This document shows positions 3,805 to 27,470 of a stretch of 32,071 nt of DNA, piece after piece. The notes under the pieces are model-generated. The model had not been told where the DNA came from, searched no databases, and saw only the letters and a list, made by a program, of their open reading frames with translations. Position 1 is the first letter of the stretch, and each line of letters starts with the position of its first letter. Position numbers and translations under genes: made by a program. The DNA is from Verrucomicrobiota bacterium (GTDB taxonomy: Bacteria; Verrucomicrobiota; Verrucomicrobiia; Limisphaerales; SIBE01): positions 1 through 32,071 of the forward strand of contig JAIPJX010000047.1 of the NCBI GenBank assembly GCA_021733945.1. Direction: 5' to 3'.

Positions 3805-3823
3805 CCCTGGTCCACGCATTATT

Positions 3824-5302
3824 ATGAAAACTTCAACACTTCTGTTCGCCCTCACCGCGCTCCTCGTCGCAGGTGGCACGCGCGCGGCCGCGCCTCGGGA
3901 ATCGGACTACTACTCCATAGAAACTTTTCCCACCGAGACCACCCCGATGGAAGTCAGCGGGATGATGCTCCGGAGTGACGGCCGGATGATGGTGGCAACC
4001 CGGCTGGGCGACATCTTTATTGTCGAAGGAGCCTACGGCGACCCCTCCCAGGTCCGGTTCCACCGCTGGGCCAGCGGCCTGGCACAACCCCTCGGATTGC
4101 TCGAACACGAGGGCTGGATCTACTGCGCACAGCGCGGGGAACTCACCCGCCTCAAGGACGTCGATGGAGACGGCCAATGCGACGTGTTCGAAACCGTGTG
4201 CGACGACTGGCAGATCAGCGGCAACTACCACGAATACAACTTCGGCCCTCGGCTCGATCGCGAAGGCTATCTCTGGGTCACCTTGAACAAACCCTTCGGC
4301 GAAGGTCCCTACGGCCAGGCCGACTGGCGGGGTTGGGCCGTGCGCGTCGATCCCAAAACCGGCACCATGCAGCCCATGAGCGTCGGACTGCGTTCCCCGG
4401 CCGGCATCGAAACCAGCCCCTGGGGCGACATGTTTTACACCGACAACCAGGGTGAATGGTGCAACGCCTCCAAGCTTTCCGTCCTTGAGTTCGGGGATTA
4501 CCACGGCCATCCCTGGGGGCTCGCCAGCCAGCAAAAGGCCGGTGCTCCGTTCGACGGAATGCCCCAGCCCATTTCGGGCACCTGGATGAAGGACATGCAC
4601 AAGCAGATTCCGCAGTTCAAAATGCCCGCCGTCTGGTTCCCCTACGACAAAATGGGCAACAGCCCCAGCGGAATGAAATGGGACCTCACCGAGGGCCGCT
4701 TCGGTCCTTTCGCCGGCCAGCTCTTCGTGGGCGACCAGCATCATTCCTGGATCATGCGCGTCTGCCTCGAAAAAGTGGAGGGCCACTGGCAGGGGGCCTG
4801 CTTTAATTTCATGGAGAACTTCCAGTCCGGCATCATCCGTCTGGCTTTTGGAAAGGATTCCTCCCTGTTTGTCGGCATGTCCAACGCAGGCTGGGGCAGC
4901 CGGGGCAACAGTCCCTGGGGACTTCAACGAGTGCGTTGGACCGGTACGACAGCCTTTGAAATCGAGCGCATGTCAGCCCGACCGGACGGATTCGAGCTCA
5001 CGTTCACCCAACCCGCCGATGCCGCCGCCGCCGCCAATCCCCTCAACTACAAGATGGAAAGCTACACCTACCGGCTCGAAAGCCGTTACGGCGGTCCCGA
5101 GGACGACAAGAAGAATGTCCAGATCCTTTCGGCCACCGTGTTGGATGGCGGGAAACGCGTGCGCCTGATCATCGACCCCATTCGCGCCGGGTATGTACAC
5201 GAACTGCACCTGTCCAACATCCCGGCAGCCGATGGCACCGGACTGCTCCATTCGGTCGGTTACTACTCCCTGATCAACATCCCGAAAAACGTTGCCCTCT
5301 GA
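3824..5302 (+). CDS. Secreted beta-propeller protein, sugar dehydrogenase-like (PVC type)
   Basis: A 492-residue protein with a signal peptide (MKTSTLLFALTALLVAGGTRAAA). The body is a run of propeller-like blades with repeated patterns such as GMMLRSDGRMMVATRLGDIF, LAQPLGLLEHEGWIYCAQRGEL and LRSPAGIETSPWGDMFYTDN, resembling soluble PQQ-type glucose/sorbosone dehydrogenases and the membrane-bound dehydrogenase domain of PVC bacteria. DVDGDGQCD (near residue 113) looks like a calcium loop. A beta-rich C-terminal part (about 380-492) follows. In many PVC relatives this domain is joined to a CxxCH haem domain; here there is no CxxCH, and the hemes are in the gene just upstream. Oxidation of a sugar or polyol with electron delivery to that cytochrome is inference. 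Cofactor and substrate are unknown. Confidence 0.75.
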   Translation: MKTSTLLFALTALLVAGGTRAAAPRESDYYSIETFPTETTPMEVSGMMLRSDGRMMVATRLGDIFIVEGAYGDPSQVRFHRWASGLAQPLGLLEHEGWIYCAQRGELTRLKDVDGDGQCDVFETVCDDWQISGNYHEYNFGPRLDREGYLWVTLNKPFGEGPYGQADWRGWAVRVDPKTGTMQPMSVGLRSPAGIETSPWGDMFYTDNQGEWCNASKLSVLEFGDYHGHPWGLASQQKAGAPFDGMPQPISGTWMKDMHKQIPQFKMPAVWFPYDKMGNSPSGMKWDLTEGRFGPFAGQLFVGDQHHSWIMRVCLEKVEGHWQGACFNFMENFQSGIIRLAFGKDSSLFVGMSNAGWGSRGNSPWGLQRVRWTGTTAFEIERMSARPDGFELTFTQPADAAAAANPLNYKMESYTYRLESRYGGPEDDKKNVQILSATVLDGGKRVRLIIDPIRAGYVHELHLSNIPAADGTGLLHSVGYYSLINIPKNVAL

Positions 5303-5312
5303 CTCCCTGGCT

Positions 5313-5337
5313 CGGACCGCCAGCATCCGGCGGTCCG
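5313..5337. terminator. Stem-loop between convergent genes, possible terminator
   Basis: CGGACCGCC (5313-5321) and GGCGGTCCG (5329-5337) form a perfect 9-bp stem with a 7-base loop, 10 bases after the stop at 5302. No T-run follows in either direction. It is placed where a terminator is needed, between the dehydrogenase-like gene and the convergent sulfatase gene. Confidence 0.45.
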
Positions 5338-5380
5338 GAGTTCCTGCCGCCGAATCCACGAAAATCCAAAAAGTCAAACC

Positions 5381-5401
5381 GCTCGCCGGGACGGTTCACG
5401 C
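5381..5401. repeat. Copy of dispersed repeat module A
   Basis: GCTCGCCGGGACGGTTCACGC differs at only two of 21 positions from the A module at 20440-20460. It reaches the first base of the sulfatase stop codon (minus strand, 5401-5403), so the repeat fills the end of the convergent intergenic gap. Confidence 0.6.
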
Positions 5402-7116
5402 TAACGCGACCGTTCGTAGGCTGGTTTCCAAATCCACGGGAGCACGCCCACCCGAACGGCCCACGCCTCCCACAAGGATACCAGCCGTTTTGTAACATCG
5501 GGAAGTTCACGGGCTCGGTCGATCAGCTCCGATCGGTCCTCTTCGATATCATACAATTCCCACGGCCCCGCCGCTTCTTTTGCAACCAGTTTCCATCGCC
5601 CGTCGCGCACCGCCCGGTTGCCCTCATGCTCCCAGAAGATCGGTTCCCGCCTCGCCACGGATCGGCCGCTGAACGCCGGTCGAAGGCTAACCCCTTCCAT
5701 TGGGTGGATCGTTTGGCCGTTGAATTCGCGCGGATAATCCGCTCCAGACACATCCACACAGGTCGCCATCAGATCGATCAAATGCGCGGGCTGGGACTCC
5801 AGACGGCCATGCTTTTCCCGATCGATGCCCCGGGGCCAGTGCACGATCAGGGGACTTGAAATGCCGCCTTCGTGAACCCAGTGTTTGTATTCGCGGAACG
5901 GCGTATTGGAGGCATTGGCCCAGGACACTCCGTATCCCAGGTAGGTGTCTGCCGGGCCGGCCATGACCCCCCTGCCCCGCCGCACCGGATATCCGTCGCG
6001 GGTGAATTCCGGAATCATTTTCTTCTGCAGTTCCGTGGCCGCCATCGGTCGCACGGGCCGATCCGGGCGCGCCTCGAACTCACGCCCCCGCCCCATTCCC
6101 TCCGCGCACCCTCCGTTGTCCGCCAGGAACAGAAGCAGGGTGTTGTCCCATTGACCGGACTCCGTCAAAGCCTGCACGATCCTCCCAATACCCTGGTCCA
6201 TCGAATCGATCATTGCGGCGTACACCTCCATCAAACGGGATTCCCACTCCTTGAGCGGCGCATCCTCCCAGGCGGGAGACCGGGGATCCCTCGGAGACAA
6301 GGGCCACCGGGGATTGATCACCCCAAGCTTCACCATGCGTTCGCGGCGTTCCTCACGCAGCACGTCCCAGCCGGAATCGTAGCGCCCCTTGTATTGATCC
6401 ATGTCGGCGGGCTTGGCATGCATCGGCCAATGCGGTGCGGTGAACGCCACATATAGGAAAAACGGCTGCTTCGTTTTTCTTTCCCCATGGTCTCGAATGT
6501 AGGTCGCGGCATGATCGGCAATTGCATCGGTATAATAAAACCCTTCACCGGGCGGCACCTGGGTATTGCCATCGGTCAGCGAATTCGGGTCATAGAAACT
6601 ACCCGCCCCATGGATGGTTCCGAAAAACCGGTCAAACCCACGCTCAAGAGGCCAATTGTGTTTCGGCCCCTCCGGCGCGATATATCGCGTCACGTGCCAT
6701 TTTCCAGACATGAAGGTGGCGTAACCACCTTGTTTCAATACTTCAGCGATGGTAAGAGATTTGCGGTTCAGATCCCCCCGGTAGCTCTCCAAGCCGCGAT
6801 CCTCCATCATGTGTCCAACCCCGGCCTGATGAGGGTAGAGCCCGGTGATCAGGGAGGCGCGCGTGGGGCAACACCGGGAGGTGTTATAGAACTGCGTGAA
6901 CCGGACCCCGTGAGCAGCCAGGCGATCAAGGTTTGGAGTCTGGATCTCACCTCCATAGCAGCCAATGTCGCTGAAACCCATGTCATCGGCCATCACGATG
7001 ACTATGTTCGGGCGCTCCGGTTCCAACGATGCAGCTCCATCGAATTGGGGGAGCAGCAGACTCCAGAGCGCCCACGTGAACACCGTGTTCCACCAGAGTT
7101 TCGGCAATATTCTCAT
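5401..7116 (-). CDS. Secreted sulfatase (formylglycine type), canonical active site
   Basis: A 571-residue sulfatase of the alkaline-phosphatase superfamily, which hydrolyses sulfate esters using a formylglycine made from a cysteine. Residues 1 to about 30 look like a signal peptide (WALWSLLLPQFDGAAS). Metal-binding aspartates are in MADDMGFSDIGCYGG (D44, D45). The catalytic site reads RCCPTRASLITG with C82 as the residue to be modified, a proper C-x-P-x-R. The GKWH motif follows, and RDGRWKLVAKE near the C-terminus is a usual family signature. The substrate cannot be told; PVC bacteria use many such enzymes on sulfated polysaccharides. It is divergent from the Pel operon and convergent with the dehydrogenase-like gene. 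A paralogue lies at 30330-32021. A formylglycine-generating enzyme is not encoded in the window. Confidence 0.9.
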   Translation of the reverse strand: MRILPKLWWNTVFTWALWSLLLPQFDGAASLEPERPNIVIVMADDMGFSDIGCYGGEIQTPNLDRLAAHGVRFTQFYNTSRCCPTRASLITGLYPHQAGVGHMMEDRGLESYRGDLNRKSLTIAEVLKQGGYATFMSGKWHVTRYIAPEGPKHNWPLERGFDRFFGTIHGAGSFYDPNSLTDGNTQVPPGEGFYYTDAIADHAATYIRDHGERKTKQPFFLYVAFTAPHWPMHAKPADMDQYKGRYDSGWDVLREERRERMVKLGVINPRWPLSPRDPRSPAWEDAPLKEWESRLMEVYAAMIDSMDQGIGRIVQALTESGQWDNTLLLFLADNGGCAEGMGRGREFEARPDRPVRPMAATELQKKMIPEFTRDGYPVRRGRGVMAGPADTYLGYGVSWANASNTPFREYKHWVHEGGISSPLIVHWPRGIDREKHGRLESQPAHLIDLMATCVDVSGADYPREFNGQTIHPMEGVSLRPAFSGRSVARREPIFWEHEGNRAVRDGRWKLVAKEAAGPWELYDIEEDRSELIDRARELPDVTKRLVSLWEAWAVRVGVLPWIWKPAYERSR

Positions 7117-7291: not shown

Positions 7292-10165
7292 ATGAGAACC
7301 TGCGGAGTCACGTTCCAGAAACTCTGTTGCATCCTGCTTCTTTGCCTGTCGATGCAAATCGCGACACCGGCTGAACCCTTGAATTTTTACATCGATTACT
7401 CCCTCATTCCGGACGAAGCGGCGATGCGGGCGCACGACCTTTCGATCGTCAGCCCGCAGGCACGCTTCGACATGACCCGGGTCCACAAGACCGGACAGGA
7501 AATCTACGCGTACATCAGCGTGGTGGAAGTGGCGTCCGACGCTCCGTACCGACCCAAACTCGAGCCGAGCGGCATCCGCCTCATGGGGACCAACGAACTT
7601 TGGAAGAGCGATTTCGCCGATATCGCCGCTCCGGAATGGACCCGGTTCGTGCTCAAGGAACTGGCCGCACCCATTGTCGAACAAGGGTTCGATGGCTTTT
7701 TTCTGGATACGGTCGACAGTCACGAACTTCTCGCCAAAGGTTTCCCCGACCGCGCCGAGGAATTCCGAAAAGGCATCATCTCCCTGATCAAAGCCCTCAA
7801 ATCGGCACACCCCACCAGGAAAATCATCCTCAACCGGGGATTCCCCATCTGGGAGGAACTCAAGGAAAGCATCGACGGAGTGCTCGTGGAATCGGTGTTC
7901 CAGACATTCGAGGGATTGGGTGGCAAATACAAGCCCGTGACGAACTCCGACTCCGATTGGTTGATCGGTCATATCCGGAGAATCCAGGCTGCCAACCTGC
8001 CCGTGTACGTGGTCGACTACTCGGATCCCAGCCGTGCCGACCTGGCCATGGCCACGGCAAAACGAATTCAGGACCTGGGCTGCCATGCCTTCGTGACCAC
8101 CCCGCAACTCAACGGCGTCACCCTGGCCCCCATCCACGAAAAGCCCCGACGCCTGCTCGTGCTCTTCGGCAATCAGGACACGGAAGCCCTCCGCGTTGAA
8201 TGGGCGACCGACAGCGAACTCAAGACCACTTCACAGTCGCCCCTCGAATGGCTTGGATTTGAGATGGATTTCCTCAACCTGTCCCGGGATCCGCTCCCGG
8301 AAACGCTCGGGGGAAAATACCTGGGAGTCGTCATTGACCGGAGTCTCCGGATTCCCGTGGAACAGGAACTCAAAACGGTGGACTGGCTCATCGCCCAAAA
8401 AGACGCTGGAAAAAAAATCCTGTTCCTCAGCCAGTTCCCCACTCTCGAACCCGCCACACAAGCAAAACTCTTCCGGGCCTTTGGCATCGGAGGCACCGGA
8501 GACTCGATCTTTCCCGTGACCCAGCTGACCTCACCCATCATTTCCCCGATGATGAATTTCGAGGCCAAAGTAAATCTTCTCCCGACCCGCTATCGGGACG
8601 TGCAGGCACCAGCCGGATCCAAGGTCCATCTGTCGGTGCGCGGCATCGACGGCAGGGGAGCCAACCGAACCTTCGATGCCGTGTTCACGACGCCCTGGGG
8701 CGGCGCGGCGATTGAGCCCTACATTTTTTTCAGTCGCCCCGACACCGTGCCCTTCTGGTTGCTGAACCCGTTTGACTTTTTCACCGAAGCCCTGATCTCC
8801 GAACCCTTCCCCGTTCCCGACACCACCACACGCGATGGACAGCGGGTGTTTTACGCGCACATTGACGGTGACGGTTTCCGCCACCAGACCACCGTGGAAA
8901 AGGGCAAAACCTCGGCGGAGATCATTCTTGAACAGGTCGTTCAAAAGTATCCCCTCCCGTTCACCTGCTCGGTGATTGAATCCGAAATCCGCGGCCTGAT
9001 CACCGATCAAAAACCAGGGGACGAAGCACGAATGACGGCCATCGCCCGGGAGATGTTCGCGCTGGACAACGTCCAGGCCGCGTCCCACGCATTCACCCAC
9101 CCCTTTTATTGGAACGACACGGACCGCGAATCCGCTTTGTACGAAAAACCCTTCCTCGATCTGATCCCGCCATTCACGATGAAGGAAATTGATGTCGAAC
9201 GCGAGGTCGTGGGATCCGTGAAGTTTATTCAGGAAAGACTCCTGCCGCCAGGCAAACAGGTGGAGATTTTTCTGTGGTCGGGAAACTGCCGCCCCTTTCC
9301 GGAGGCCATTCGGCTGACCCGCGAACTGGGCATCGAGAACATGAACGGCGGCGACACCACCCTTTCGCGCCGCAACCCCACACTCACCCAGGTCTCTCCG
9401 CGCGCCATTCCCTGGGGTGATGAACTTCAGATCCACGCAGCCAATCAGAACGAGAACGTATACCGGGACCGCTGGAAACCCTATGGCCAAAGTGACATTC
9501 CGTTCTACGGAGGATATATTCACGCCATCGAATCGTTCCAGCAGACCGGGTCCCCACGGCGGCTCAAACCGGTGAACGTCTATTTCCACTTCTACAGCGG
9601 CGACTCGCTCATGGCGCTCAAAGCGCTCACCAAAGCACTCGACTGGTCGGTGGAACAGCCCCTGCATTCCCTCACCGCCAGACAGTATGCCCAAACCGTC
9701 CGCGACTGCCGCAACACCAGACTCTTCAGGGCTCCCGACAAACGCTGGATCCTGGTGAACGACGGCAACCTCAGAACCTTTCGGATCGACCGCCCGACCG
9801 GTTTGCCGGACATCTCCCAATGCGAGGGGGTCACCGGATACGCGGTCTCCGGGGAGCACCTCTATATTCACACCGACGGCTCGCCGCGCGTCACACTGCG
9901 ATTCTCATACCAGCCGAGCGCCCATATCTACCTGATCTCCAGCAGCGCCGAAATTGAGTTCACAAACCTCGATCCCGAATCGGCCGAGTTTTCCGTCTCC
10001 GATCTCCGCCCCTGCCGGGTCACTCTGGGCGGCGCCTTCGCCGGCGCCCAGTACGAGGTCCGCATCAACGAGCAACCCACGACCCTCAGGGCCGACTCGA
10101 AGGGACACCTGGCGCTGACCCTGCCAAACACGGCACGCGTCGCGCTCAAATCGCTCAACCGCTGA
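7292..10165 (+). CDS. pelA: PelA: periplasmic Pel polysaccharide hydrolase/deacetylase
   Basis: A 957-residue protein, close to the 948 residues of Pseudomonas aeruginosa PelA. A signal peptide (residues 1 to about 27) leads into an endo-alpha-1,4-N-acetylgalactosaminidase-like barrel (about 28-280; starts LNFYIDYS). GFDGFFLDTVDS and DGVLVES hold barrel-end acidic residues; E200 is in the place of the known PelA catalytic glutamate (E218). A middle Rossmann-like part follows (about 290-500). The deacetylase domain begins with HIDGDG, giving D525 and D527, and the metal histidines are H599 and H603 (SHAFTHPF), matching D528/D530/H600/H604 of the Pseudomonas enzyme. The C-terminal 200 residues are beta-rich. 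PelA trims and partly deacetylates the polymer so it can be exported. It is the first gene of the operon, 13 bp before pelB. Both active sites look intact. Confidence 0.92.
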   Translation: MRTCGVTFQKLCCILLLCLSMQIATPAEPLNFYIDYSLIPDEAAMRAHDLSIVSPQARFDMTRVHKTGQEIYAYISVVEVASDAPYRPKLEPSGIRLMGTNELWKSDFADIAAPEWTRFVLKELAAPIVEQGFDGFFLDTVDSHELLAKGFPDRAEEFRKGIISLIKALKSAHPTRKIILNRGFPIWEELKESIDGVLVESVFQTFEGLGGKYKPVTNSDSDWLIGHIRRIQAANLPVYVVDYSDPSRADLAMATAKRIQDLGCHAFVTTPQLNGVTLAPIHEKPRRLLVLFGNQDTEALRVEWATDSELKTTSQSPLEWLGFEMDFLNLSRDPLPETLGGKYLGVVIDRSLRIPVEQELKTVDWLIAQKDAGKKILFLSQFPTLEPATQAKLFRAFGIGGTGDSIFPVTQLTSPIISPMMNFEAKVNLLPTRYRDVQAPAGSKVHLSVRGIDGRGANRTFDAVFTTPWGGAAIEPYIFFSRPDTVPFWLLNPFDFFTEALISEPFPVPDTTTRDGQRVFYAHIDGDGFRHQTTVEKGKTSAEIILEQVVQKYPLPFTCSVIESEIRGLITDQKPGDEARMTAIAREMFALDNVQAASHAFTHPFYWNDTDRESALYEKPFLDLIPPFTMKEIDVEREVVGSVKFIQERLLPPGKQVEIFLWSGNCRPFPEAIRLTRELGIENMNGGDTTLSRRNPTLTQVSPRAIPWGDELQIHAANQNENVYRDRWKPYGQSDIPFYGGYIHAIESFQQTGSPRRLKPVNVYFHFYSGDSLMALKALTKALDWSVEQPLHSLTARQYAQTVRDCRNTRLFRAPDKRWILVNDGNLRTFRIDRPTGLPDISQCEGVTGYAVSGEHLYIHTDGSPRVTLRFSYQPSAHIYLISSSAEIEFTNLDPESAEFSVSDLRPCRVTLGGAFAGAQYEVRINEQPTTLRADSKGHLALTLPNTARVALKSLNR

Positions 10166-10178
10166 TCCACGCCGCCTC

Positions 10179-12521
10179 ATGCGCCCCGGACTGAAATGGC
10201 TCCCGTTTCTGAACAGAGACCAGGGCAAGGCCTTTCGCCCTGTCCCCCTTCGGATGCTCGCGGGTCTGATCATCGTCTCGCTCACCCTCGCTTATTATCT
10301 TCTGCCCTCCAGTCGCAAACTTCTGGAGCGGCAACTCGAGGACGGGCAACTGCCACAGGCTCTCTCCACCCTGCGTGACATCCCGTTGAGCGAACGGGAA
10401 ACCGACCCCGCCTTTTTCGATCTGCTCGAGCTTCAGCTCGTTCGGCAACTGCTCGACCCGACCGAACCGCGCATGGTGATCCGCCAGCTTCTCGAAGCGG
10501 CGCATGGGTATGAAGCCCACGGGTTCCGTGACGCATTTCTTGTGGAAATCCTCACGATGATCCGAAAGGCACCCAACATCGAGCAGGCCCACACCCTGCT
10601 CAGACCCGCCATCACGCGCATGCCACAGCGGGGGCAGCAGCGGATTTATCTCTACCTCGCCAACGCAGCCCTTTCCGCCGATCAACCCGTCTTGGCCCCC
10701 CAACTCTATGTTCAGTTCTGGCAGAGTTCGCCCCGGGCCGAGGAGACCACCCACGAGATGGCCAAACTCTGGCGTTCGGCCGGCCACGCCCAGAAGGCAC
10801 TCGACACCATCGAAACGTATCTCGCCGACACCGGGGTTCTGCCTGTAAAACTCACCTTTCCGCTCGCCCGGCTCCGCATCGATCTGTTCCGCGAAACAGC
10901 CCAACCCGGCCTGGCTTTCGAAGCCCTCCGCGAACTCTTCCCAACAGTCACCCCCGACCATCAGGCCGAGGTGTTCGACCTGCTGATCTCCACCGCACTG
11001 GAATCAAGCCGGACTCCCGAAGTCCTTCCGATCGTTCAGGCGCGAGCCGAAAAATCGCCGGAGGACGCGGCACTTTGGAAACGGCTGGGTGAACTGGCCG
11101 TCTCCGGAGGCGACATTCCGGCGGCCATCCAGGCGTATCAGCGGCTGACCCGGCTCCAGCCTGCTTCGGCCGAAAACTGGGGAAAGATCGGGCAGTTGAG
11201 CGAATGGAACACTCAGCCCAACCAGGCATTTGACGCATACCTCAAGGCCCTCGAACTCCGGGACACGGCGGGCATTGAACGTTTGGCCGACCTGAGTCAG
11301 GGCCTGTATCGGGACGCAGAACTGGCCCTCAAACTGGAGGAACTCGGCGACCTGATCGATCCCAGCCGGTTTCCCCGACAGTTCGCCCGTCTGTACGGAC
11401 GTGTGGGGGACTTCGACAAAGCGCGAAAACTTTACACAGACCTTCTCAAGGCACCCGATGCGAGTGCGGAGCTCCTGATTGAATACGGATCCTTCCTACA
11501 GGCACTTTCCGAGTTCGAACCCGCCTACGAAGCCTTCCGAAGGGCCTCTCTGCTGAAACCCGGAGACCAGGGCATCCTCAAGGCGCTGGCCGAAATTCAA
11601 TTCCGGCTCGGCGACTATTCCCGTTCGCTCCTCGACTATCAGGCCCTGCTCAAATCCAGCGACGAAATCGAGGTGTTCGAAACCTACCTGCGACTGGCCG
11701 AGTCACTCGGCAATCTCGAGGGAATCATTCAAGGGTTGCGCATCAAGATCGCCGGGGAAGTCGAGGTGTCCGACTACGACTACGAACGACTGGCCCTGTT
11801 CCTCAACATCCAGGGCAAACGGACCGAGTACCTTCAGACTCTCGAACAGGCACTGGAACGGTTTCCGGACCGCAAGAACCTTCGGGAAACCACCGCCTAC
11901 GCGTATTCAGACGGCGGGCAACTCAAGGAGGCCCTGCGGCATCTGGAACAACATCCGGACCTGAGAACCCACCCCAGGCTGGTCCGGTTCTACGTCAGTG
12001 TGCTCGCCCAGATGCGTGAGTTCGAAAAGGCTCTGGCGTTTTTTAATTCCGTTCCCGCGAAACGGGTTGCCTCGGCACCGCTCATGGAGCTGCGCGCTTA
12101 CGTCAACGAAGCGGCGGGAAACATCGATGAAGCGACCCGGGTCTACTCTCAGCTCTACGAGGCGGAGCCCAGGAACGCCCGGTACGCGCTGAATTATGGC
12201 CGACTCTTGAGCAGCATTGGCAAGGCCCGGCAGGCCGAAACCCTGATTGCCCCATTCCTCAAGGACGCAACCCCGGAAACCTCCCGGTTGGCCGCTCAAG
12301 TGTACTCCGCTCTGGGCGATTTCCAGGAGGCCGAACAACTCCAGTTCCGGTTCCTGAAATCGGGCCCACAAGCCGCCGAGGCTCCGCAGGCCTGGGGGTT
12401 CCTTGGCGATCTCCGACTGGTGCAGGGAGACCGCAGGGGTGCCAAACGGGCCTACCAGACGGGGCTCAACGAGATGTTTAAAGACTTCGCCCCGGGAAAC
12501 CGCTCTCTCAGCGCACGGTAA
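10179..12521 (+). CDS. pelB: PelB, TPR scaffold part: inner-membrane-anchored
   Basis: A 780-residue protein with one N-terminal membrane helix (about residues 27-46, LAGLIIVSLTLAYYLLPSS) and then almost entirely helical TPR-type repeats to the end, for example GDIPAAIQAYQRLTRLQPASAENWGKIGQL and FEPAYEAFRRASLLKPGDQGILKALAEIQ. This matches the N-terminal two thirds of Pseudomonas PelB (1193 residues), whose periplasmic repeats bind PelA and guide the polymer. It stops with TAA at 12519-12521 with no beta-barrel. The barrel is in the next gene, whose ATG is 11 bp downstream. I read this as a true split and not a broken gene, because the next protein has its own export signal. Start chosen at the ATG 13 bp after pelA; no Shine-Dalgarno sequence is seen. 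Confidence 0.85.
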   Translation: MRPGLKWLPFLNRDQGKAFRPVPLRMLAGLIIVSLTLAYYLLPSSRKLLERQLEDGQLPQALSTLRDIPLSERETDPAFFDLLELQLVRQLLDPTEPRMVIRQLLEAAHGYEAHGFRDAFLVEILTMIRKAPNIEQAHTLLRPAITRMPQRGQQRIYLYLANAALSADQPVLAPQLYVQFWQSSPRAEETTHEMAKLWRSAGHAQKALDTIETYLADTGVLPVKLTFPLARLRIDLFRETAQPGLAFEALRELFPTVTPDHQAEVFDLLISTALESSRTPEVLPIVQARAEKSPEDAALWKRLGELAVSGGDIPAAIQAYQRLTRLQPASAENWGKIGQLSEWNTQPNQAFDAYLKALELRDTAGIERLADLSQGLYRDAELALKLEELGDLIDPSRFPRQFARLYGRVGDFDKARKLYTDLLKAPDASAELLIEYGSFLQALSEFEPAYEAFRRASLLKPGDQGILKALAEIQFRLGDYSRSLLDYQALLKSSDEIEVFETYLRLAESLGNLEGIIQGLRIKIAGEVEVSDYDYERLALFLNIQGKRTEYLQTLEQALERFPDRKNLRETTAYAYSDGGQLKEALRHLEQHPDLRTHPRLVRFYVSVLAQMREFEKALAFFNSVPAKRVASAPLMELRAYVNEAAGNIDEATRVYSQLYEAEPRNARYALNYGRLLSSIGKARQAETLIAPFLKDATPETSRLAAQVYSALGDFQEAEQLQFRFLKSGPQAAEAPQAWGFLGDLRLVQGDRRGAKRAYQTGLNEMFKDFAPGNRSLSAR

Positions 12522-12532
12522 ACTCGCCGCCC

Positions 12533-14200
12533 ATGGCTTCTCTCGCTTCACCCGCTCAAACCCGACCCCGAACGCTCCGGGTTCGCGAACTTGCAGTCCG
12601 GGCACCCGCGGATCAGGCGGATCCGGCGGGCTCAACCATCAGGAAACTCCCCAGCTACTCGCGATGGATTCCTTTGGCGTGCGCCCTCCTGCTGCCCTTC
12701 CGGGGTTCCGCTCAGCAAACCAACGCTCCACAGCCAGACTCCCCCGAAGCTCGGGAAGATGTCGCCGACGCACGGGCTCTGGAACTCTTCGGTCAACTGG
12801 GCATCGAACACCGCCGTTACCTCGTCTACCTGTATTCCAGGCTGAACAAACCGAGGATCGCGTCCGTTCTGGCCGACCGCATCCTGTCCGAGTTGCCCGG
12901 CGACAAGCAGACTCTTCTGACCTTGGCTTCGATGCACATTGATCAGAAGAACGTCGATGCAGCGCTCTACTACGGGCACAAGCTGACCGAGCTCTTTCCC
13001 GGAGACGAACAGGCCCGATATTATCTGGGTGCCGCCCTGTATCTCGCGGGTCGGTTCGCTGAATCCAGGGACACCCTTCAGGGCATCAAGCAGGAACGTT
13101 ACAAGAACAGGCTCTATCCCTACCAGGGCGACCTGGCCTCCGCGACTCTCCTTGCCGAAGACTGGCACAGGGCGCTGATCGCCTATCAGGAACTTCTCCA
13201 GCGCCACCCCCTCACCCAGGAGGTCCGGTTGAGCGCACGGCGCCTGGTCGAACGACTCTACCGTCTGCACCTCCCCCAAATCTCGTTCGATGCAACCGCC
13301 AACCTCATCAACTCCGGCAGCTTCTATCGAACCCGCCTCGATTACCAACGCCATGTCACAGACGCCAGCCTGCTGTTGGTGGAGGTGAGCCGGGACGACA
13401 CCGAAGTGCTGGAGCGCCCCCTGCTTCGCAACCGACGGACGGACCGGACGGATCTCCTGATCGGCCTGCAAACCGTGTTGAATCCGAAATGGACCTCGCG
13501 CCTGTCCCTCGGCGGATCCTCCGGCTCGGGCCCGGTCGGCAGCGCCAGCCTCATACGCTCGTTCGGAGAACGAAAAATCATGACGCTCGAAATAGACGGC
13601 AACGAACCGTCCCTCGAAGGGCTCCTGTTCCAATCCCTCGACGGCCGGAGAGACCGGGCCGTGTGGTCGACGGACTATGCACTTGGAAAAAACTGGGTGA
13701 TTCTCTCCGAAATCTACGGCTGGGAATCGGTCATCGAACGAAACCGGATCGGGACGGGTTACGGCGGCAACTGGAATCTCGAACGAATCCTGATCCACAA
13801 CCGACCGGATCTCCGCGTTGGCTACCGGGGCATCTGGACCCGATTCTCCCGGGACACCCGAGACACCCGCCTCATTGCTCCAGCCGCGGAACCCGGTCTG
13901 GACCTGACCGGACGCACCACGCTTCTCCAAGGTCTTCTGCTCCCCGAATTCCACAGGCACGGACTCTACGCCAGCTGGCGCGGGCAACTCTCCAGCGCGC
14001 TCTCCTACAGCGCCTCCGCCGGCATGGACTATGACATCACGCTTGGAATCTTCGCCAAGAACGGGACTCTTGGCATCGACTACTTCCCCACTCGCCGGAT
14101 TGAGCTGAAAGCCGAGACCCGTTACGCAAGCAGCGCGAGGACGGCGGACGCCGCCTCGAGCCTCTGGCAGATAAATGTTGCCTTTAAATACTGGTTCTAA
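12533..14200 (+). CDS. pelB: PelB, outer-membrane beta-barrel part with short TPR segment
   Basis: A 555-residue protein. A hydrophobic export signal sits unusually late (about residues 46-60, WIPLACALLLPFRGSAQQ), after 43 polar residues. No ATG, GTG or TTG lies in frame between the ATG at 12533 and the hydrophobic core, so the start is uncertain. Residues about 80-230 carry three or four TPR-like units (DAALYYGHKLTELFPGDEQARYYLGAALYLAGRF is typical). From about 250 to the end there are alternating beta strands, and the last residue is Phe (NVAFKYWF), the usual C-terminal signal of outer-membrane barrels. This corresponds to the C-terminal third of Pseudomonas PelB, the pore through which Pel leaves the cell. 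It lies 14 bp before pelC. Confidence 0.82.
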   Translation: MASLASPAQTRPRTLRVRELAVRAPADQADPAGSTIRKLPSYSRWIPLACALLLPFRGSAQQTNAPQPDSPEAREDVADARALELFGQLGIEHRRYLVYLYSRLNKPRIASVLADRILSELPGDKQTLLTLASMHIDQKNVDAALYYGHKLTELFPGDEQARYYLGAALYLAGRFAESRDTLQGIKQERYKNRLYPYQGDLASATLLAEDWHRALIAYQELLQRHPLTQEVRLSARRLVERLYRLHLPQISFDATANLINSGSFYRTRLDYQRHVTDASLLLVEVSRDDTEVLERPLLRNRRTDRTDLLIGLQTVLNPKWTSRLSLGGSSGSGPVGSASLIRSFGERKIMTLEIDGNEPSLEGLLFQSLDGRRDRAVWSTDYALGKNWVILSEIYGWESVIERNRIGTGYGGNWNLERILIHNRPDLRVGYRGIWTRFSRDTRDTRLIAPAAEPGLDLTGRTTLLQGLLLPEFHRHGLYASWRGQLSSALSYSASAGMDYDITLGIFAKNGTLGIDYFPTRRIELKAETRYASSARTADAASSLWQINVAFKYWF

Positions 14201-14214
14201 CTAACCTGCTGATT

Positions 14215-14733
14215 GTGGCGAAATTCAATGCTTTCATAGCCCTGGTCCTGCTGGGAGCGCTCGCCGGATGCGCTTCCTTTTCCAACTCCCTGAGCCGGAC
14301 CACCGGTGAAGCAGGAGCCATGCGCCTCTTCGTACCCCCGTTCTTCAATGCAACCGGAGACGAACATGCAGGACGCGCTCTCACGGAACTGACGGTCACC
14401 GCCCTGCTCCACCGCGGAATTCCGGTTGCACAAACCGAAGCCGCTCTCGCAAAGACCCGGGTCGAGGACGCCCCGGACAAACCAACCCTCTTTCTCGAAA
14501 CCGCCAAATCGCTCGAAGCCACACATCTCTTGGTTGGTACCGTGCACGAGTATCGGTACAAAACCGATCTGGACGGAAATCCAGCCGTGGGAGTCACGCT
14601 CCGGTTGGTGGACGCCACCGACGGCCGCACCGTGTGGCAGGACAGCGAGTCTGGAGTGGGCATGCTGGCCGCCTCGCTGAGTTCGGTGGCCCAGCGCTCG
14701 ATCCGAAAGCTCGTCAACAAGATCCCATTTTGA
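14215..14733 (+). CDS. pelC: PelC: outer-membrane lipoprotein of Pel export
   Basis: A 172-residue lipoprotein starting with GTG. The signal peptide ends in a lipobox (LAGC, C19), with Ala after the cysteine, as for lipoproteins sent to the outer membrane under the rule known from E. coli. The length equals that of Pseudomonas PelC (172 residues). The mature part reads as alternating strands and helices (ALTELTVTALLHRGIPVAQTEAAL; RLVDATDGRTVWQDSES), in keeping with the known PelC fold, which assembles into a periplasmic 12-subunit ring around the PelB exit. Position in the operon supports the call. A 109-bp gap to pelD follows, one of only two real gaps in the operon. Confidence 0.85.
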   Translation: MAKFNAFIALVLLGALAGCASFSNSLSRTTGEAGAMRLFVPPFFNATGDEHAGRALTELTVTALLHRGIPVAQTEAALAKTRVEDAPDKPTLFLETAKSLEATHLLVGTVHEYRYKTDLDGNPAVGVTLRLVDATDGRTVWQDSESGVGMLAASLSSVAQRSIRKLVNKIPF

Positions 14734-14842
14734 ACCCGGGCACCGGAGGGGGAATCCCTCAACCAACCTGCCGTTCCCGGACACCCATCCACAGAATTGC
14801 CAGCCGCTTCCAACCGGCCCGGGCTGCAGGTCCCACAGCCCC

Positions 14843-16204
14843 GTGAAACCGTCCTTCATCAAATCCACATTCGCCCATCTGCCGCACCGCAGTGCCGCGA
14901 TCGATGCGGGCATGATCCTCGGTTTCCTGTTCTTTCTGAACGGCCTGTTCTCCCCACTCGACCTCGGGTGGCTCACCCTGCATCCGTCCCCCTATTTCCT
15001 ACTGCCCCTCCTGATGGGTTCCCGCTACGGCTTTGCCGCCGGGTCCCTGTCCGGGCTTATGGCTGCCGGCACAATCGCCTCGGGCCTGATGTTCCTGGAA
15101 GCAATGCCGTTTGCGACCCTTTTCAAGCTCCACGGAGCACTCCTGGGGAACTTCATCTTCGTCGGCGGCATCTGCGGCGAGCTTCGTCGCGGATTCCGCA
15201 ACAAGGAAGTCCAGCTCACACAACGCAACGAAGTCCTCCACAAACAACTCAGGGACCTGGATGTCGATCTGGCCCTGCTGCGCGAATCCAAAGCCGAACT
15301 CGAAGAAATGTTGGCCACGGAAAACTCCGAACTCTCCACCCTGGACAGTGAACTGCGCCAGCTCTTTGACGCCGACGAAGAGGAAATATTCCCAAGCCTG
15401 CTCCTGCTTCTCAACCGGCAACTGCGCATCACCGACGGGGCCATCTACACCGTTGCCGAGGACGACTCGCTCAAAAGACGCGCCTGTTTCGGGCAAACCG
15501 ATCACCTTCCGGAAAAGATCGATCCCGGGGAAATCGAAATCATCGATCTGGCCGTTCGCAACAAGACAACGGTGACCCTGCCGGAGATATGGAAGGATGC
15601 CACACCGCACCACGCCGATTATCTCATCGTCGTGCCTCTCCTCAACTCCGAGGAAAAGGTCATGGGCCTGGTGGCCGTCACCAACATGCCTTTCATCGCA
15701 CTGAACCGGAAAGCGGTCAGCCTGGCCTCCCTGATCTGTCGCTGGGCGTCGCGCATTGTGGAAAAACGAATCCTCACCCACACCTCGTCACAACCGGAGC
15801 AAGGCAGGCTCTTTGACACCGCGTTTTTCCGGGAACACACCGAGCTGGCCCTTGATTCCTACCGATCCCACGGTTTGCCCGCCTCCATCGTGCTCTTCAC
15901 CGTGCCTCCCGATTGCGGGATCAGTCAAAACCATCTCGAACGGGCGATCATGGCCAGCGTCCGCAGCGGGGACTGCCCCGCCGTGCTTGATCTGCCCTCC
16001 ACCCACCTGACCGTGCTCCTTCCGCTCACCGGAGAACGCGGCGTGAGCATTTTCATCAACCGAATCCTGATCAACTGCCGCAAGGACCCGAAGCTGGCCA
16101 AACACATCCGCTCCCGGTGGATCCGGTTTGAATCTCATCAAAACCTCGACTCCATTTGGACCGAGCTGACCCGCGATGTGGAAGAACCTGCTCTCGACGC
16201 TTAG
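14843..16204 (+). CDS. pelD: PelD: inner-membrane cyclic-di-GMP receptor
   Basis: A 453-residue protein (Pseudomonas PelD: 455), starting with GTG. Residues about 18-110 contain four membrane segments (GMILGFLFFLNGLF and others). A coiled-coil-like stretch follows (about 120-175, EVQLTQRNEVLHKQLRDLD), then a GAF-type domain (about 175-310) and a degenerate GGDEF-type domain (about 320-450) without the GGDEF signature. The inhibitory-site motif is kept as RSGD (R374, D377), with another arginine at R407. In Pseudomonas, R367, D370 and R402 hold the cyclic-di-GMP dimer, with nearly the same spacing. Binding switches on polymer synthesis by PelF. The end overlaps the start of pelE by 29 bases. 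Confidence 0.9.
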   Translation: MKPSFIKSTFAHLPHRSAAIDAGMILGFLFFLNGLFSPLDLGWLTLHPSPYFLLPLLMGSRYGFAAGSLSGLMAAGTIASGLMFLEAMPFATLFKLHGALLGNFIFVGGICGELRRGFRNKEVQLTQRNEVLHKQLRDLDVDLALLRESKAELEEMLATENSELSTLDSELRQLFDADEEEIFPSLLLLLNRQLRITDGAIYTVAEDDSLKRRACFGQTDHLPEKIDPGEIEIIDLAVRNKTTVTLPEIWKDATPHHADYLIVVPLLNSEEKVMGLVAVTNMPFIALNRKAVSLASLICRWASRIVEKRILTHTSSQPEQGRLFDTAFFREHTELALDSYRSHGLPASIVLFTVPPDCGISQNHLERAIMASVRSGDCPAVLDLPSTHLTVLLPLTGERGVSIFINRILINCRKDPKLAKHIRSRWIRFESHQNLDSIWTELTRDVEEPALDA

Positions 16205-17198
16205 CCTCGCGCTGGCCGCTCTTCTCGAGGCGTGGACCCTGGGAGTGTTGATCCAGGGTGCCTCCGATCCCGCTTCGCTGGAATGGCGCCCCGCGACGTT
16301 CCATGCCTTGGGGATCGCGCTGGGAGCATTCGGATTCCACCTCACCTGGCCTCAGTCCCAGCGCCGGAACCGATTCGCGTTGACCCTGTTCTTCACCGCC
16401 CTCTCCCTCCCGCTGCCGCTGATAGGACTCATACTCATGGGTGCCTTCCGACTCGTGCTCCGCCTGCGCCCCAGGCACATGCGGAACACCCAGTATGTGT
16501 TCGGGGAAAAACCGTTTCTCACCCTGGAAAAGCCCGAGGACTTCCAATTGCAGTCCGTCCGCTCCGTTCTGGAGATTCTCAGCAGCAAGGACGAAAACCT
16601 CCGCCGGACCGCCATCATCGGGTTGCGCTCTGCCGACCCCAAGAAATCACTTCCCCTCCTGCGCAAGGCCATCCAGGACAGCGACGAACAGGTGCGTCTG
16701 CTCGCTCAAACCCAGTTCAACCGGATCCTTGCCAAACTCGAGACCGCCGTCAAACGCATGGAAGCGGGCCTGCCCGACTCCACCCACCGGGCCTCCGATC
16801 TGGTCGTGCTCGCAGAGCATTATCACGAACTGGTCTATCTCGCCGTCAGCAGCCAGGAGACCGAGTCCATCTACCTCGAGCGGGCCACCCAGCTGTTGAC
16901 CGAAGCACTCGACCTCAGCCCCGATCTCACCGCAGCCCGTTTTCTCCTGCTCCGCTGCCAGGTCAAAACCCCCGACATTGCAGGCGCCAAAGCATCCGTG
17001 CAAACCCTCTTGGCCTCGGGGTTCCCTGAGAATTCCCTCCTGCCGTGGATGGCTGAAATCTGTTTCGTCGAACGGGACTGGAACACCTTTCTCAAAACCC
17101 TTCGCAAAATGGATGCTTCGCCATCCTGCGATTCGAGACTCGCCGACCGCCTCGCCTTCTGGCTTCGCCCGGCCAACCGCACGGAGGTGCCAGCGTGA
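16176..17198 (+). CDS. pelE: PelE: inner-membrane TPR/HEAT-like partner protein
   Basis: A 340-residue protein (Pseudomonas PelE: about 330). The first 100 residues hold three or four hydrophobic segments (LLSTLSLALAALLEAWTLGVLI; ALTLFFTALSLPLPLIGLIL). The rest is helical: a HEAT-like part (about 130-190, RRTAIIGLRSADPKKSLPLL) and a TPR-like part (about 205-335, ERATQLLTEALDLSPDLTAA). In Pseudomonas, PelE joins PelD, PelF and PelG in the inner-membrane synthase complex. The gene begins inside the 3' end of pelD and its stop overlaps the pelF start by 4 bases, so the three are translationally coupled. The identification rests more on position and layout than on motifs. Confidence 0.82.
   Translation: MWKNLLSTLSLALAALLEAWTLGVLIQGASDPASLEWRPATFHALGIALGAFGFHLTWPQSQRRNRFALTLFFTALSLPLPLIGLILMGAFRLVLRLRPRHMRNTQYVFGEKPFLTLEKPEDFQLQSVRSVLEILSSKDENLRRTAIIGLRSADPKKSLPLLRKAIQDSDEQVRLLAQTQFNRILAKLETAVKRMEAGLPDSTHRASDLVVLAEHYHELVYLAVSSQETESIYLERATQLLTEALDLSPDLTAARFLLLRCQVKTPDIAGAKASVQTLLASGFPENSLLPWMAEICFVERDWNTFLKTLRKMDASPSCDSRLADRLAFWLRPANRTEVPA
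17183..17188 (+). promoter_or_regulatory. Strong ribosome binding site of pelF
   Basis: GGAGGT lies 6 bases before the GTG at 17195, inside the end of pelE. It fixes the pelF start. It is one of only two strong Shine-Dalgarno sequences noticed in the window. Confidence 0.75.
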
Positions 17199-18745
17199 CC
17201 CCGTCCACCAGCGAACAAGTGGCGGATGTGGCCCTCTTCCTCGAGGGCACCTATCCCTATGTTCTGGGAGGCGTTTCCTCCTGGGTCGACCAGATCATCC
17301 GCGGCCTGCCCGAACTGACCTTCGCGCTCTTTTACCTCGGAAGCGAAAAAAAGCCCGACCAGGAAGTCCAATACTCCCTGCCCTCCAATGTGCTTTCCCT
17401 CTCCGAGGTCTACCTGCACGACCGCATCCCGGAGAAGGATCTGAAGCCCGGACGCCTGCCCGAGCACCTGCGGGCACAGGGATACGAGTGTTGGAGCAAG
17501 TTTTACCTCGCTGAAACCCAGGAGGAACAACTGGCCGCATTCTGGACCATGATCGACGGCCTGGAGGCGATGGAGGGACATATCACCTTCGGGAACCTCA
17601 CCCAGGATCGGGCACCCTGGGAAATCCTCATGGCCGCCTACGAACGGTTTGCGCCGGACGAATCGTTCATCGATTTTTTCTGGACCCTGCGATTCCTCCA
17701 CATGCCGCTGTGGACCCTCTGGAAGGCCCGCACCCTTGTGCCCCGCGCCCGCATCTACCACAGTGTGTCAGCCGGATACGCCGGTTTTCTGGGAGCCATC
17801 AGCGCCCGACGGCACGGGGTCCCCTTCTTGCTCACCGAACACGGGATTTACACCAAGGAACGCATCGCCGAGATCAGCCAGGCGGACTGGATCTACGAAC
17901 AGGAGAATTATCGCGTGACCTTCGCCGAGGGACTGGGCCCGCTCAAACAACTTTGGATCGGGCTCTTCGCGTTCCTTGGCAGAATCGCGTACGAACAGGC
18001 CGGCAGCATCATCACGCTTTACGAGGGAAACGCCCTGACCCAGGTTGAATTCGGTGCCGACCGGGCCCGCATCGAAATCATTCCCAACGGAATCGAACCT
18101 TCGAAATTCGACGGGATCCGCGACCGGATCCTGAGCCGGTGGAACCCGGAACCCGCCATGAAATGCGTTGGTTTTGTCGGGCGCGTGGTGCCGATCAAGG
18201 ACGTAAAAACACTGCTGCGCGCCGCCCGTCTCCTGATCGAACGGCGCGATGACGTTGAGTTCCTGATCGCCGGACCCTATTCGGAGGATCCGGATTACTT
18301 TGAAGAATGCCAGAAAATCGTCCGCCTGCTGCATCTTGAAAACAAGGTGACGTTCCTGGGAAAACAGAAACTGACCGATGTGATTCCCCGCATCGATGTC
18401 ATGGTCCTGACCAGCATCAGCGAGGGACTTCCCCTCGTCGTGCTCGAAGCCATGGCGGCAGGCATTCCCACCGTGGCCACCGATGTGGGGGCGTGCCGCG
18501 AACTCATCTTCGGACGAACCCCGGAGGACAAGGCACTGGGGCGCGCCGGCCGATTGACCAAGATCCTTTCCCCCCAGGAAACGGCCCTGGCACTCGCCAC
18601 CACCCTTGAAAACCCGGACCAATGGCGCAGCATGGGCACCTCGGGTCGATTGCGGGTCGAACAATGTTACACCATGACGCTGATGCTCGACAGTTACCGG
18701 GAACTCTACCGGGAGGCGTCCACAGCGCCCGCCCCGAAATCATGA
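17195..18745 (+). CDS. pelF: PelF: cytosolic GT4 glycosyltransferase, Pel synthase
   Basis: A 516-residue glycosyltransferase of family GT4 with the GT-B fold (Pseudomonas PelF: 507). It begins with the PelF signature EGTYPYVLGGVSSWV (about residues 15-29). The C-terminal half has IPNGIEPSKF, GFVGRVVPIKDVKTLLRA and the E-x7-E nucleotide-sugar motif in SEGLPLVVLEAM (E410, E418). PelF has no membrane segment and uses UDP-activated amino sugars to make the polymer. The GTG start is backed by a strong ribosome site and by the 4-base overlap with pelE. An 85-bp gap precedes pelG. Confidence 0.93.
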   Translation: MTPSTSEQVADVALFLEGTYPYVLGGVSSWVDQIIRGLPELTFALFYLGSEKKPDQEVQYSLPSNVLSLSEVYLHDRIPEKDLKPGRLPEHLRAQGYECWSKFYLAETQEEQLAAFWTMIDGLEAMEGHITFGNLTQDRAPWEILMAAYERFAPDESFIDFFWTLRFLHMPLWTLWKARTLVPRARIYHSVSAGYAGFLGAISARRHGVPFLLTEHGIYTKERIAEISQADWIYEQENYRVTFAEGLGPLKQLWIGLFAFLGRIAYEQAGSIITLYEGNALTQVEFGADRARIEIIPNGIEPSKFDGIRDRILSRWNPEPAMKCVGFVGRVVPIKDVKTLLRAARLLIERRDDVEFLIAGPYSEDPDYFEECQKIVRLLHLENKVTFLGKQKLTDVIPRIDVMVLTSISEGLPLVVLEAMAAGIPTVATDVGACRELIFGRTPEDKALGRAGRLTKILSPQETALALATTLENPDQWRSMGTSGRLRVEQCYTMTLMLDSYRELYREASTAPAPKS

Positions 18746-18830
18746 CACTCGAAAGACCAACCGACGCAGCCCGCCGGAGCGCGCGGACGCGGTGCCGGCC
18801 CTCCGGCCCCACCCTTTTCCCGTATTCACC

Positions 18831-20294
18831 ATGGCAGGCATAGGATTTGAACTGAACAAAATCCTTTCACGCCAGGGCTACCTGTCCGTGTTTAAGGCGT
18901 ATGCCTACGCCGGCGTCATTGGAAGCGGGCCCTGGCTGATCGCGGTGATCTCGCTCGGCCTCCTGGGCACGGCCATGAACACCCTCGACATGACGGCGGA
19001 CACCCGTGTCTTCTTCGTCTCCGTCTCGGTGGTTTACGGGTTCACGCTGGTCCTCACAGGCCCCATCCAGGTCGTGCTCACCCGTCATGTGGCCGACCAG
19101 GAGTATGCCGAACGGCGGGACACCATCTTCCCCATTTACATCAAGTGTGTGAGCTGGGTCTCGCTTCTGTTTGCGGTCCTGGGCTCCCTGTTCTTCGGCC
19201 TGCTCGTCCCGGCCCCCCTCCTGTTCAAGGGAGCGGCCGCCCTCCTGACCGCTCTGGTGGCCGCCATCTGGATCAGCGCCATATTTCTATCCGCACTCAA
19301 GAACTATTACGCCGTCCTGATCAGTTTCGCGGTCGGGTGCACCGTCAGCTGCCTGGCCGCCTGGCAATTCGCCATCTCTCTGGGATTGGCCGGTGCCATG
19401 CTGGGCTTCGCCATCGGACACGGCGTTCTGCTCACGATCCTGGCCTCGGTGATCTACAAGGAACTCGGACTCTCCGACGCCAAGGCAGGCCCCCTGCTCG
19501 GCAGCTTTGTCAAATACTGGGACCTGGCGCTGGCGGGATTGTTTTACAACCTGGGAGTCTGGATGGACAAGTTCCTCTACTGGTGGGTCGATCCAAAGGC
19601 CGATGTCGTTGCGGGCATCCTCAGGGCCTCCCCGGTGTTTGACCGCGTGGTCTACTTCTCCTTTCTGACCATCCTGCCCGGAATGGCGGTTTTCCTGCTG
19701 AAACTCGAAACCGAATTCGCAACCCAGAACCTTCAGTTCTGCCAGCACGTGCTCAAGAAGGGCACCCTGAACCAGATCCGCACCATCAAGCACCAGATGG
19801 TCGATTCCCTCAGGGAAGGCATTTTCCTTCTCGTGAAGGTTCAGGGCCTGTTCACGGGCCTCCTGATCCTGGGGGCCGACCGCGTCATGCGCATCCTCGA
19901 ATTGGGTGCCGTGCAGTCCGGCGTGCTCCAGATCTCGTTGATTGGACTGTTCCTGCTCGTGATCTTCCTCGCCCTGCAGACCATTCTCTTCTACCTGGAC
20001 AAACGATTGGATGCCATGCTCTGCTGCATCCTCTTCACCGCGATCAACGGTTCGGTCACGGCGTTGTGCCTCCCGATGGGCGAAAAACTATACGGCGTTG
20101 GATTCCTGGCCGCCGCCGCTTCCGCCGTCATCATGGCCTCCTTCATGGTCAACCATCACCTCAAGGACCTCGAATACGACACCTTTGCCATGCAACCCGT
20201 TTACAGCGGCCCCGAAGCTCCTGACATAACAAACAAACCTTCGGCCTTCCCCTCCTCCGTAGCCAAACCACCTGGTTTCCCCCCGAAAGCCTAG
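18831..20294 (+). CDS. pelG: PelG: Wzx-like inner-membrane Pel transport protein
   Basis: A 487-residue polytopic membrane protein with about 12 hydrophobic segments, of the polysaccharide transporter (MOP/Wzx-like) kind; Pseudomonas PelG has 456 residues. I chose the ATG at 18831 because MAGIGFELNKIL is the usual PelG N-terminus; an in-frame GTG at 18792 would only add a proline-rich leader. Conserved stretches include AYAGVIGSGPWLIAVISLG and FYNLGVWMDKFLYWW. The C-terminal 35 residues are a hydrophilic, proline-rich tail with no membrane segment, longer than I expect for this protein. It is the last gene of the Pel operon; the repeat-filled gap starts right after its stop. Confidence 0.9.
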   Translation: MAGIGFELNKILSRQGYLSVFKAYAYAGVIGSGPWLIAVISLGLLGTAMNTLDMTADTRVFFVSVSVVYGFTLVLTGPIQVVLTRHVADQEYAERRDTIFPIYIKCVSWVSLLFAVLGSLFFGLLVPAPLLFKGAAALLTALVAAIWISAIFLSALKNYYAVLISFAVGCTVSCLAAWQFAISLGLAGAMLGFAIGHGVLLTILASVIYKELGLSDAKAGPLLGSFVKYWDLALAGLFYNLGVWMDKFLYWWVDPKADVVAGILRASPVFDRVVYFSFLTILPGMAVFLLKLETEFATQNLQFCQHVLKKGTLNQIRTIKHQMVDSLREGIFLLVKVQGLFTGLLILGADRVMRILELGAVQSGVLQISLIGLFLLVIFLALQTILFYLDKRLDAMLCCILFTAINGSVTALCLPMGEKLYGVGFLAAAASAVIMASFMVNHHLKDLEYDTFAMQPVYSGPEAPDITNKPSAFPSSVAKPPGFPPKA

Positions 20295-23830: not shown

Positions 23831-26800
23831 GTGACGCCTCACCCTTTTGTCATCCGATTCCTGAGAACCGCCATCGCCGCCGCAGTCCTCCCGGCGACTC
23901 TCGCTTCCGCAGCGAACAGCGACGCCAAGCCCGATTTCTCGCGCGATGTGCGGCCGATTCTCTCGAAGAACTGTTTTCAATGCCATGGCCCCGACTCCAA
24001 GGCACTCAAGGGCAAACTCCGTCTCGACACCGCCGAGCACGCTTTGGACGCTCGGGACGGCGGCATGGCCGCAATCACGCCGGGTGCTCCGGACAAAAGC
24101 GCCCTCATCCTCAGAATCTTCGCTTCGGATCCGGATGACATCATGCCCCCTCCCGAAACGAAGAAAGAACTCACCGCCGCGGAAAAGGAAACCCTCCGCC
24201 AGTGGATTGCCTCCGGCGCGGAATATGAACCCCACTGGGCGTTCGAACCCCCGCAACAGCCCCCCCTCCCCGCGATCACCCTCAAGGACTGGCCGCGCAA
24301 CAGCATCGACCATTTCATCCTGGCACGCCTGGAGTCTCAGGGCCTGTCCCCCTCGCCGCGTGCCGATCGGGACATCCTGATCCGGCGGCTCTATCTGGAT
24401 CTGATCGGTCTGCCCCCCACCCCGGAGGAACTGGCTGAACTCCAGATCGACTCGAGCCCGGCCTCCTACGAACGTCTGGTGGACCACCTCCTGGCGTTGC
24501 CCCAATACGGGGAACGCTGGGCGCGCCGCTGGCTCGATCTGGCCCGATACGCGGACACCAACGGGTACGAAAAGGATCGTCCGCGATCCATCTGGCCCTA
24601 CCGGGACTGGGTCATCAACGCCTTGAACCGGGACATGCCCTTCGACCGGTTCACGATCGCACAAATCGCAGGAGACATGCTCCCGGGCGCATCCGTCGAA
24701 ACTCGAATCGCCACGGGTTTCCACCGAAACACCATGCTCAACGAGGAGGGAGGCATCGACCCTCTCGAGTTCCGGTTCCATGCAATGACCGACCGGGTCG
24801 CCACCACCGGCAAAACCTGGCTCGGCCTGACGATTGGATGCGCCCAATGCCACACCCACAAGTTCGACCCCATTCCCCAGCGGGAATACTATCAGTTCAT
24901 GGCCTTCCTCAACAACGCGAACGAACCGGACCTCGATGTGCCCGATCCCGCAATCGCCGAGAAGCGGAACGTGATCCAGACCCAAATCAGGGGATTGATC
25001 CGGGATCTCCCAAACCGATTCCCCGTGCACACCATGCTGTGGCAACCCCTTGAAACCACCTCCGCCCGAAACCGCGCGGGCACCGCGGCCGAATCCCTGG
25101 AGGATCATTCCCTCCGTTTCCCCAAGGACACCCCGACCGATGTTTACTCGCTCGAATTTGACCTGGACCTCGAACGTATCGATCAAATCCAGCTCGAAGC
25201 GTTGATCGACGATGCGTTGCCGGGCAAGGGACCCGGCCGTTCCTCAGGTGGAAATTTTGTCCTGAGCGAAATCTCATTGACCGCGGCTCCCAGGAACCGC
25301 CCCGAAGAAGCCCGCGCTCTCCGGTTCAAATCCGCCACATCCGATTTCTCACAGAACGGCTACGAGATAGCCCATGCGATTGACGGCAAACCGGAGACCG
25401 GTTGGGCCATCCACGGCCCGGACAAGCCCAATGTCGACCGCACCGCGACGTTCACCCTCGAACAACCCCTCCTGCTCCCGGGTGGCATCCACCTGAAAAT
25501 CGAACTCAGCCAACTCCACGGCGATCACCACACTCTGGGTCGCATTCGCATGGCTGCCGGACGAATCATCGAGGATCCCCGCCCCATCGAAACCCGCCGG
25601 CGCGAACGCCTGGACCGGAGCTTCATACAATGGCTCGCGGAGAAATCAAAACAGTCGGTCGACTGGACCGTGTTGCACCCGGAGGAAGCCACGTCGAACT
25701 TGCCGCTCCTGACCGTGCTCGAGGATGACTCGGTGCTGGCCAGCGGCGACCAGACCAAGAGCGACACCTACCATTTGCGATTCAAGACTGATGTGGAGGG
25801 CATTCGCGCGATTCGGCTCGAAGCCATGGCCGATGATCGCCTTCCCCGCCACGGCCCCGGCCGGGTCTATTATGAAGGACCCATAGGCGATTTTACCCTG
25901 TGCGAATTCAACGTGCGCACCGACGGTCACCCAGCCCCGATCGGCACGGCACGGCACAGCTTTGCGTCCGGCAACTTCACCGCTCAAGCCGCCATCGACG
26001 CCAACCCCCAGACCGGTTGGTCGATCAACGGCGGGCAGGGGCGCTCCCATGCCGCCCTCTTCGAACTGGCTTCACCCGTTCCCAAGGCAGGCGTCCTGGA
26101 GATCGACATGCTTTTCGAACGTCACTTCTCGGCCGGCCTCGGCCGGTTCCGAATCTCCGTCACCACGGGATCCAGACCTGCCGACGCACAGGTCCTGGAC
26201 CCGGAGATTGAACGGTTGTCAAGAGTCCCGGAGGACCAGCTCACCGAAGCCCAGCAGGAGACCTTGTTCCAGGCTTTCCTCCTGGAAACACCGGAACTCG
26301 CAGCCGAACACGCACGGCTGGCGGAACTCAAAAATCAGCTTCCCGATTTTCCAACCACACTTGTCATGGAGGAACGCCCGGACGGCAACCCCCGCCCCAC
26401 GTTCATTCACAATCGCGGCGAGTTTTTGCAGCCGACCGAACAGGTGCACCCCGGCGTTCTCTCCGTGCTTCAGCCGCTTCCGCCGGACGAAAAACCCTCG
26501 CGCCTCGCGTTCGCCCGCTGGCTGGTTTCCCCCTCGAACCCGCTGGTCGCCCGCGTGACAGTGAACCGGCAGTGGTCCGCCCTGTTCGGCAGCGGAATCG
26601 TCACCACCGAGGAGGATTTTGGGTATCAGGGAAACCTGCCCTCGCATCCCAAACTGCTCGACTGGCTGTCCGTCGAGTTCATCAATCAGGCATGGTCCCT
26701 CAAGAAACTCCACAAACTGATCGTCATGAGCGCCACCTACCAGCAGGCGTCCCGGGTCTCCGATGCACTCCTGAAAGTGGACCCGGACAACCGGCTCCTG

Positions 26801-27412: not shown

Positions 27413-27470
27413 CCCTCCCATGATGCAATTCGAGAACCACAACCGACCAAACCTCCCCTGCCGATAGTTT

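Follow-up and report, generated by a model that had tools for sequence, protein, structure and literature searches.

A probable Pel biofilm operon with a putative two-gene PelB in an uncultured Verrucomicrobiota lineage

The window, i.e., the whole stretch of 32,071 nucleotides that was analysed, very probably carries a genuine Gram-negative Pel operon, and judging from sequence its product would be Pel, a sticky sugar polymer by which biofilms are held together, made through the PelA–G machinery with a PelB composed of two proteins. Eight consecutive ORFs, each open from end to end, occupy positions 7292-20294 of the forward strand in the order pelA, pelB1, pelB2, pelC, pelD, pelE, pelF, pelG, and the set is apparently complete and intact. 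The genes are as follows:

pelA, 7292..10165, + strand: 957 aa with a signal peptide; periplasmic protein combining an alpha-1,4-galactosaminidase (GH114/GH166-like) and a deacetylase (CE21-like)
pelB1, 10179..12521, + strand: 780 aa; N-terminal membrane helix (21-45) and long TPR array; first PelB part
pelB2, 12533..14200, + strand: 555 aa; few TPRs and a probable outer-membrane beta-barrel; second PelB part
pelC, 14215..14733, + strand: 172 aa lipoprotein with lipobox LAGC at 16-19
pelD, 14843..16204, + strand: 453 aa; membrane part, GAF and degenerate GGDEF; predicted c-di-GMP receptor
pelE, 16176..17198, + strand: 340 aa; N-terminal membrane helices followed by helical repeats
pelF, 17195..18745, + strand: 516 aa GT4 glycosyltransferase (synthase) with an EX7E motif at 410
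pelG, 18792..20294, + strand: 500 aa as listed; polytopic inner-membrane exporter with many hydrophobic segments

The spacing within the locus ranges from a 29 bp overlap (pelD/pelE) to a 109 bp gap (pelC/pelD), with a further overlap of 4 bp between pelE and pelF; therefore, the eight genes are likely to be expressed as a single transcript. A scan of the window for Rfam families, c-di-GMP riboswitches among them, gave no match. The host genome contains matches to GGDEF (four) and to EAL (two), as well as a single galE that scores over its cut-off, and it is therefore plausible that the c-di-GMP signal is available and that the UDP-sugar precursor can be made.

The two proteins central to synthesis and inner-membrane export are identified most directly by their families. 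PelF matches the NCBIfam PelF equivalog NF038011 with 542 bits (cut-off 100, 1.3e-162), as well as DUF3492 (1.7e-79), and PelG matches Pfam PelG (PF16933) over the model's full length with 390 bits (cut-off 29, 1.9e-116). Since the relatives of PelG begin MAGIGFEL, its start is probably the ATG at 18831 instead of the listed GTG at 18792.

Residues 59-922 of PelA align with the sequence of 9cgy_A, a full-length PelA solved by crystallography (1.5e-108). It has been reported that the hydrolase residues of PelA are D160 and E218, and that those of the deacetylase are H526, D528, D530, H600, H604 and H761 (PMC12022489). At the aligned positions, the window PelA has D139 and E200 in the hydrolase and H523, D525, D527, H599, H603 and H766 in the deacetylase, that is, both domains are present with both active sites kept. 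PelC matches the PDB PelC chain 9h80_C (3.1e-17), with further matches to 5t10, 5t11 and 5t0z. For PelD, the match to solved PelD structures (4euv and others) reaches 1.4e-8, and Pfam PelD_GGDEF gives 17.5 bits, which is under its cut-off of 27 bits. In Pseudomonas aeruginosa PelD, R367, D370 and R402 are required for c-di-GMP binding (PMC8461298); R374, D377 and R407 of the window protein align with them, R374 and D377 recur in nine or more of ten aligned PelD proteins, and the c-di-GMP site is thus predicted to be kept. PelE has no relative among solved PelE structures by sequence. It can be aligned along its entire length with proteobacterial PelE. In a phmmer search of a small test set it matched PelE proteins from operons in Pseudoalteromonas (2.7e-16) and in Caballeronia (6.1e-16), and the HEAT-like stretch that Pfam recognises in it falls in a segment common to other PelE proteins. 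An earlier note on this DNA had read the locus as a complete, probably functional pelABCDEFG in a Verrucomicrobiota host, a reading upheld in all respects tested (family and PDB matches, key residues, relatives); by sequence, PelD, PelE and PelG lead to PelD structures, proteobacterial PelE and PF16933, respectively, and not to unrelated families.

At the PelB position there are two ORFs, which are read in different frames. PelB1 belongs to TPR families, and its profile matches the TPR region of PelB from proteobacteria (97.7%, 1.6e-12), a value to be read with the ease with which TPRs cross-match. In profile comparison, residues 252-555 of PelB2 match the final 300 positions of a one-piece PelB, with the C-terminus shared (93.4%, 2.5e-7). 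The likeness of both parts to one-piece PelB is weak, and this profile comparison supports the reading of pelB1 and pelB2 as a putative two-gene PelB. An AlphaFold2 model of PelB2 from the single sequence (pLDDT 39) was uninformative on the predicted barrel. The split recurs in a genome of the same genus (G388), in a single-contig genome of the same class (G272) and in one of the same order (G502), and because of this recurrence it is not a sequencing error. Fission of pelB has also been described for some other bacteria (PMC7112194).

Among these relatives, the genus-mate G388, titled Verrucomicrobia bacterium, has the same pel genes spread over two contigs at 56-78% identity, and G272, a 5.9 Mb genome, has the identical eight-gene order. 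A genome contig scan with one protein yielded one relative only. PelG was above the cut-off in 7 of the 388 genomes sampled across the phylum, and a full-length PelG match, a count that leaves out weak or partial matches, was obtained in 14 of the 293 genomes of the order, the window genome being included in both figures. The distribution of Pel in Verrucomicrobiota is therefore patchy. Some loci are partial or unusual. In G423 a lone PelG starts 283 bases from the contig end, so the absence of pel neighbours there says little. G235 has a pelD-(E)-F-G cluster (L013, 12250-17176) with no recognisable pelA, B or C adjoining; PelA-like hydrolase and deacetylase parts lie on its contigs C57, C3 and C14, with a weak PelB2 match on C57. 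In the divergent Verrucomicrobiota pel cluster of G321, an unassigned ORF of 648 aa (L014, 8371-10317) stands between pelE and pelF.

A different arrangement is seen in g227, a related genus within the order, in which pelC-D-E-F form one cluster (L069-L073), pelG lies apart (L049, L050, L052-L054, L056, L057), and pelA and pelB2, a few kilobases from each other, occupy a third site that is mostly on a different contig. In searches for these proteins, PelA, PelB2, PelC-F and PelG co-occurred in every g227 genome checked despite the lack of linkage, and this persistence supports a joint function of the pel parts. The idea of a PelG-only system in g227 was dropped, as PelA, PelB2 and PelC-F were found elsewhere in the same genomes.

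Trees of PelF and PelG, which the earlier note had proposed, were built with small sampling and with roots for drawing only. In the PelG tree, the window and its genus-mate stand together with G423, G272 and G235, separate from the beta/gammaproteobacterial clade, and the PelF tree is consistent with this as far as its genomes go. The window thus falls among other Verrucomicrobiota genomes. A second lineage in the phylum (G368, G215, G335) joins Azospirillum (100/100), so that the Pel of the phylum does not form a single clade here. The window lineage with the two-piece PelB is near beta/gammaproteobacterial Pel, and the second lineage is Azospirillum-like. In G368, a 600 aa ORF lies between pelB2 and pelD, at the place expected for pelC (L016, 5812-7614). 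The presence of two or more distinct Pel lineages within Verrucomicrobiota suggests horizontal transfer, and transfer between phyla, in either direction, is the likely reason for them.

The host itself has to be considered, since the window is the entire contig (C221) of a draft genome (5.4 Mb, 90% complete, 0.7% contamination), and a proteobacterial contig could have been binned with a Verrucomicrobiota genome by mistake. This is hardly credible, because the genus-mate and the one-contig G272 carry the same genes, PelG and PelF group with other Verrucomicrobiota genomes, and genes typical of the PVC group share the contig. These lie at 988-7116 and 23831-28916 (PSCyt1/PSCyt2/PSD1, DUF1501, a cytochrome c/PA14 protein and a sulfatase) and support the assignment to a Verrucomicrobiota host. 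The division of PelB might also be taken as a mark of a decaying, non-functional operon; with all eight frames open, the key residues retained and the same split shared by G388, G272 and G502, such decay is very improbable.

A further matter is the polymer, for the same machinery may make a chemically different product with another sugar or linkage. The sugar that is polymerised is not readable from sequence, the window PelG shares only some 33% identity with its proteobacterial counterparts, and it has been cautioned that divergent pel operons may make another polymer (PMC7112194). On the other side, PelA keeps both its galactosaminidase and its deacetylase active sites, with which an alpha-1,4-GalNAc chain fits, and a different polymer is considered unlikely.

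If the product is Pel, the pathway can be proposed by homology. PelF would polymerise UDP-GalNAc at an inner-membrane PelD-PelE-PelG complex, which c-di-GMP would turn on through PelD; periplasmic PelA would trim the chain and remove part of its acetyl groups, and export through the PelC ring and the PelB porin would yield a cationic polymer of the biofilm matrix. In this export step, PelB1 would be the membrane-anchored periplasmic TPR protein and PelB2 the TPR-barrel porin, the two presumably assembling with each other. We see an even chance that these loci represent a distinct Verrucomicrobiota Pel lineage, in which two proteins share the export role of PelB, one a TPR scaffold anchored in the inner membrane and the other a porin with a short stalk, and in which some genera retain all pel genes but scatter them over the chromosome. 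A natural two-piece PelB could help to tell the scaffold role of PelB from its porin role.

The earlier note had also taken the locus as a new extension of Pel to Verrucomicrobiota, which does not hold. Full-length PelA homologues have been reported in 16 phyla, with Verrucomicrobiota among the commoner ones outside Proteobacteria (PMC12022489, J Biol Chem 2025), and Pel operons in many phyla (PMC7112194). Since Pel genes were already reported from Verrucomicrobiota, a Pel operon here is an expected kind of find; a literature text search for Verrucomicrobiota together with pelABCDEFG returned no paper besides PMC12022489 in the collection searched. The present analysis adds the lineage with a two-piece PelB, the second, Azospirillum-like lineage, the patchy distribution and the related genus with dispersed pel genes, and it documents a complete Pel operon of an uncultured Verrucomicrobiota lineage together with the surrounding genes and the related loci.

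Compared with known systems, the Gram-positive pelDEADAFG of Bacillus cereus shares PelD, E, F and G with the window, as well as regulation by c-di-GMP (PMC7112168), but it is without the outer-membrane PelB and PelC. The plasmid pel operon of Azospirillum thermophilum (L028) has pelB split likewise and the same order B1-B2-C-D-E-F-G; however, its pelA is also split, and its PelF and PelG belong to the other lineage, shared with Verrucomicrobiota G368, G215 and G335. The pelABCDEFG of Pseudomonas aeruginosa and other beta/gammaproteobacteria resembles the window in gene order, in the seven functions and in the key residues of PelA and PelD, whereas its pelB is one gene instead of two, and the window PelF and PelG stand in a separate Verrucomicrobiota clade.
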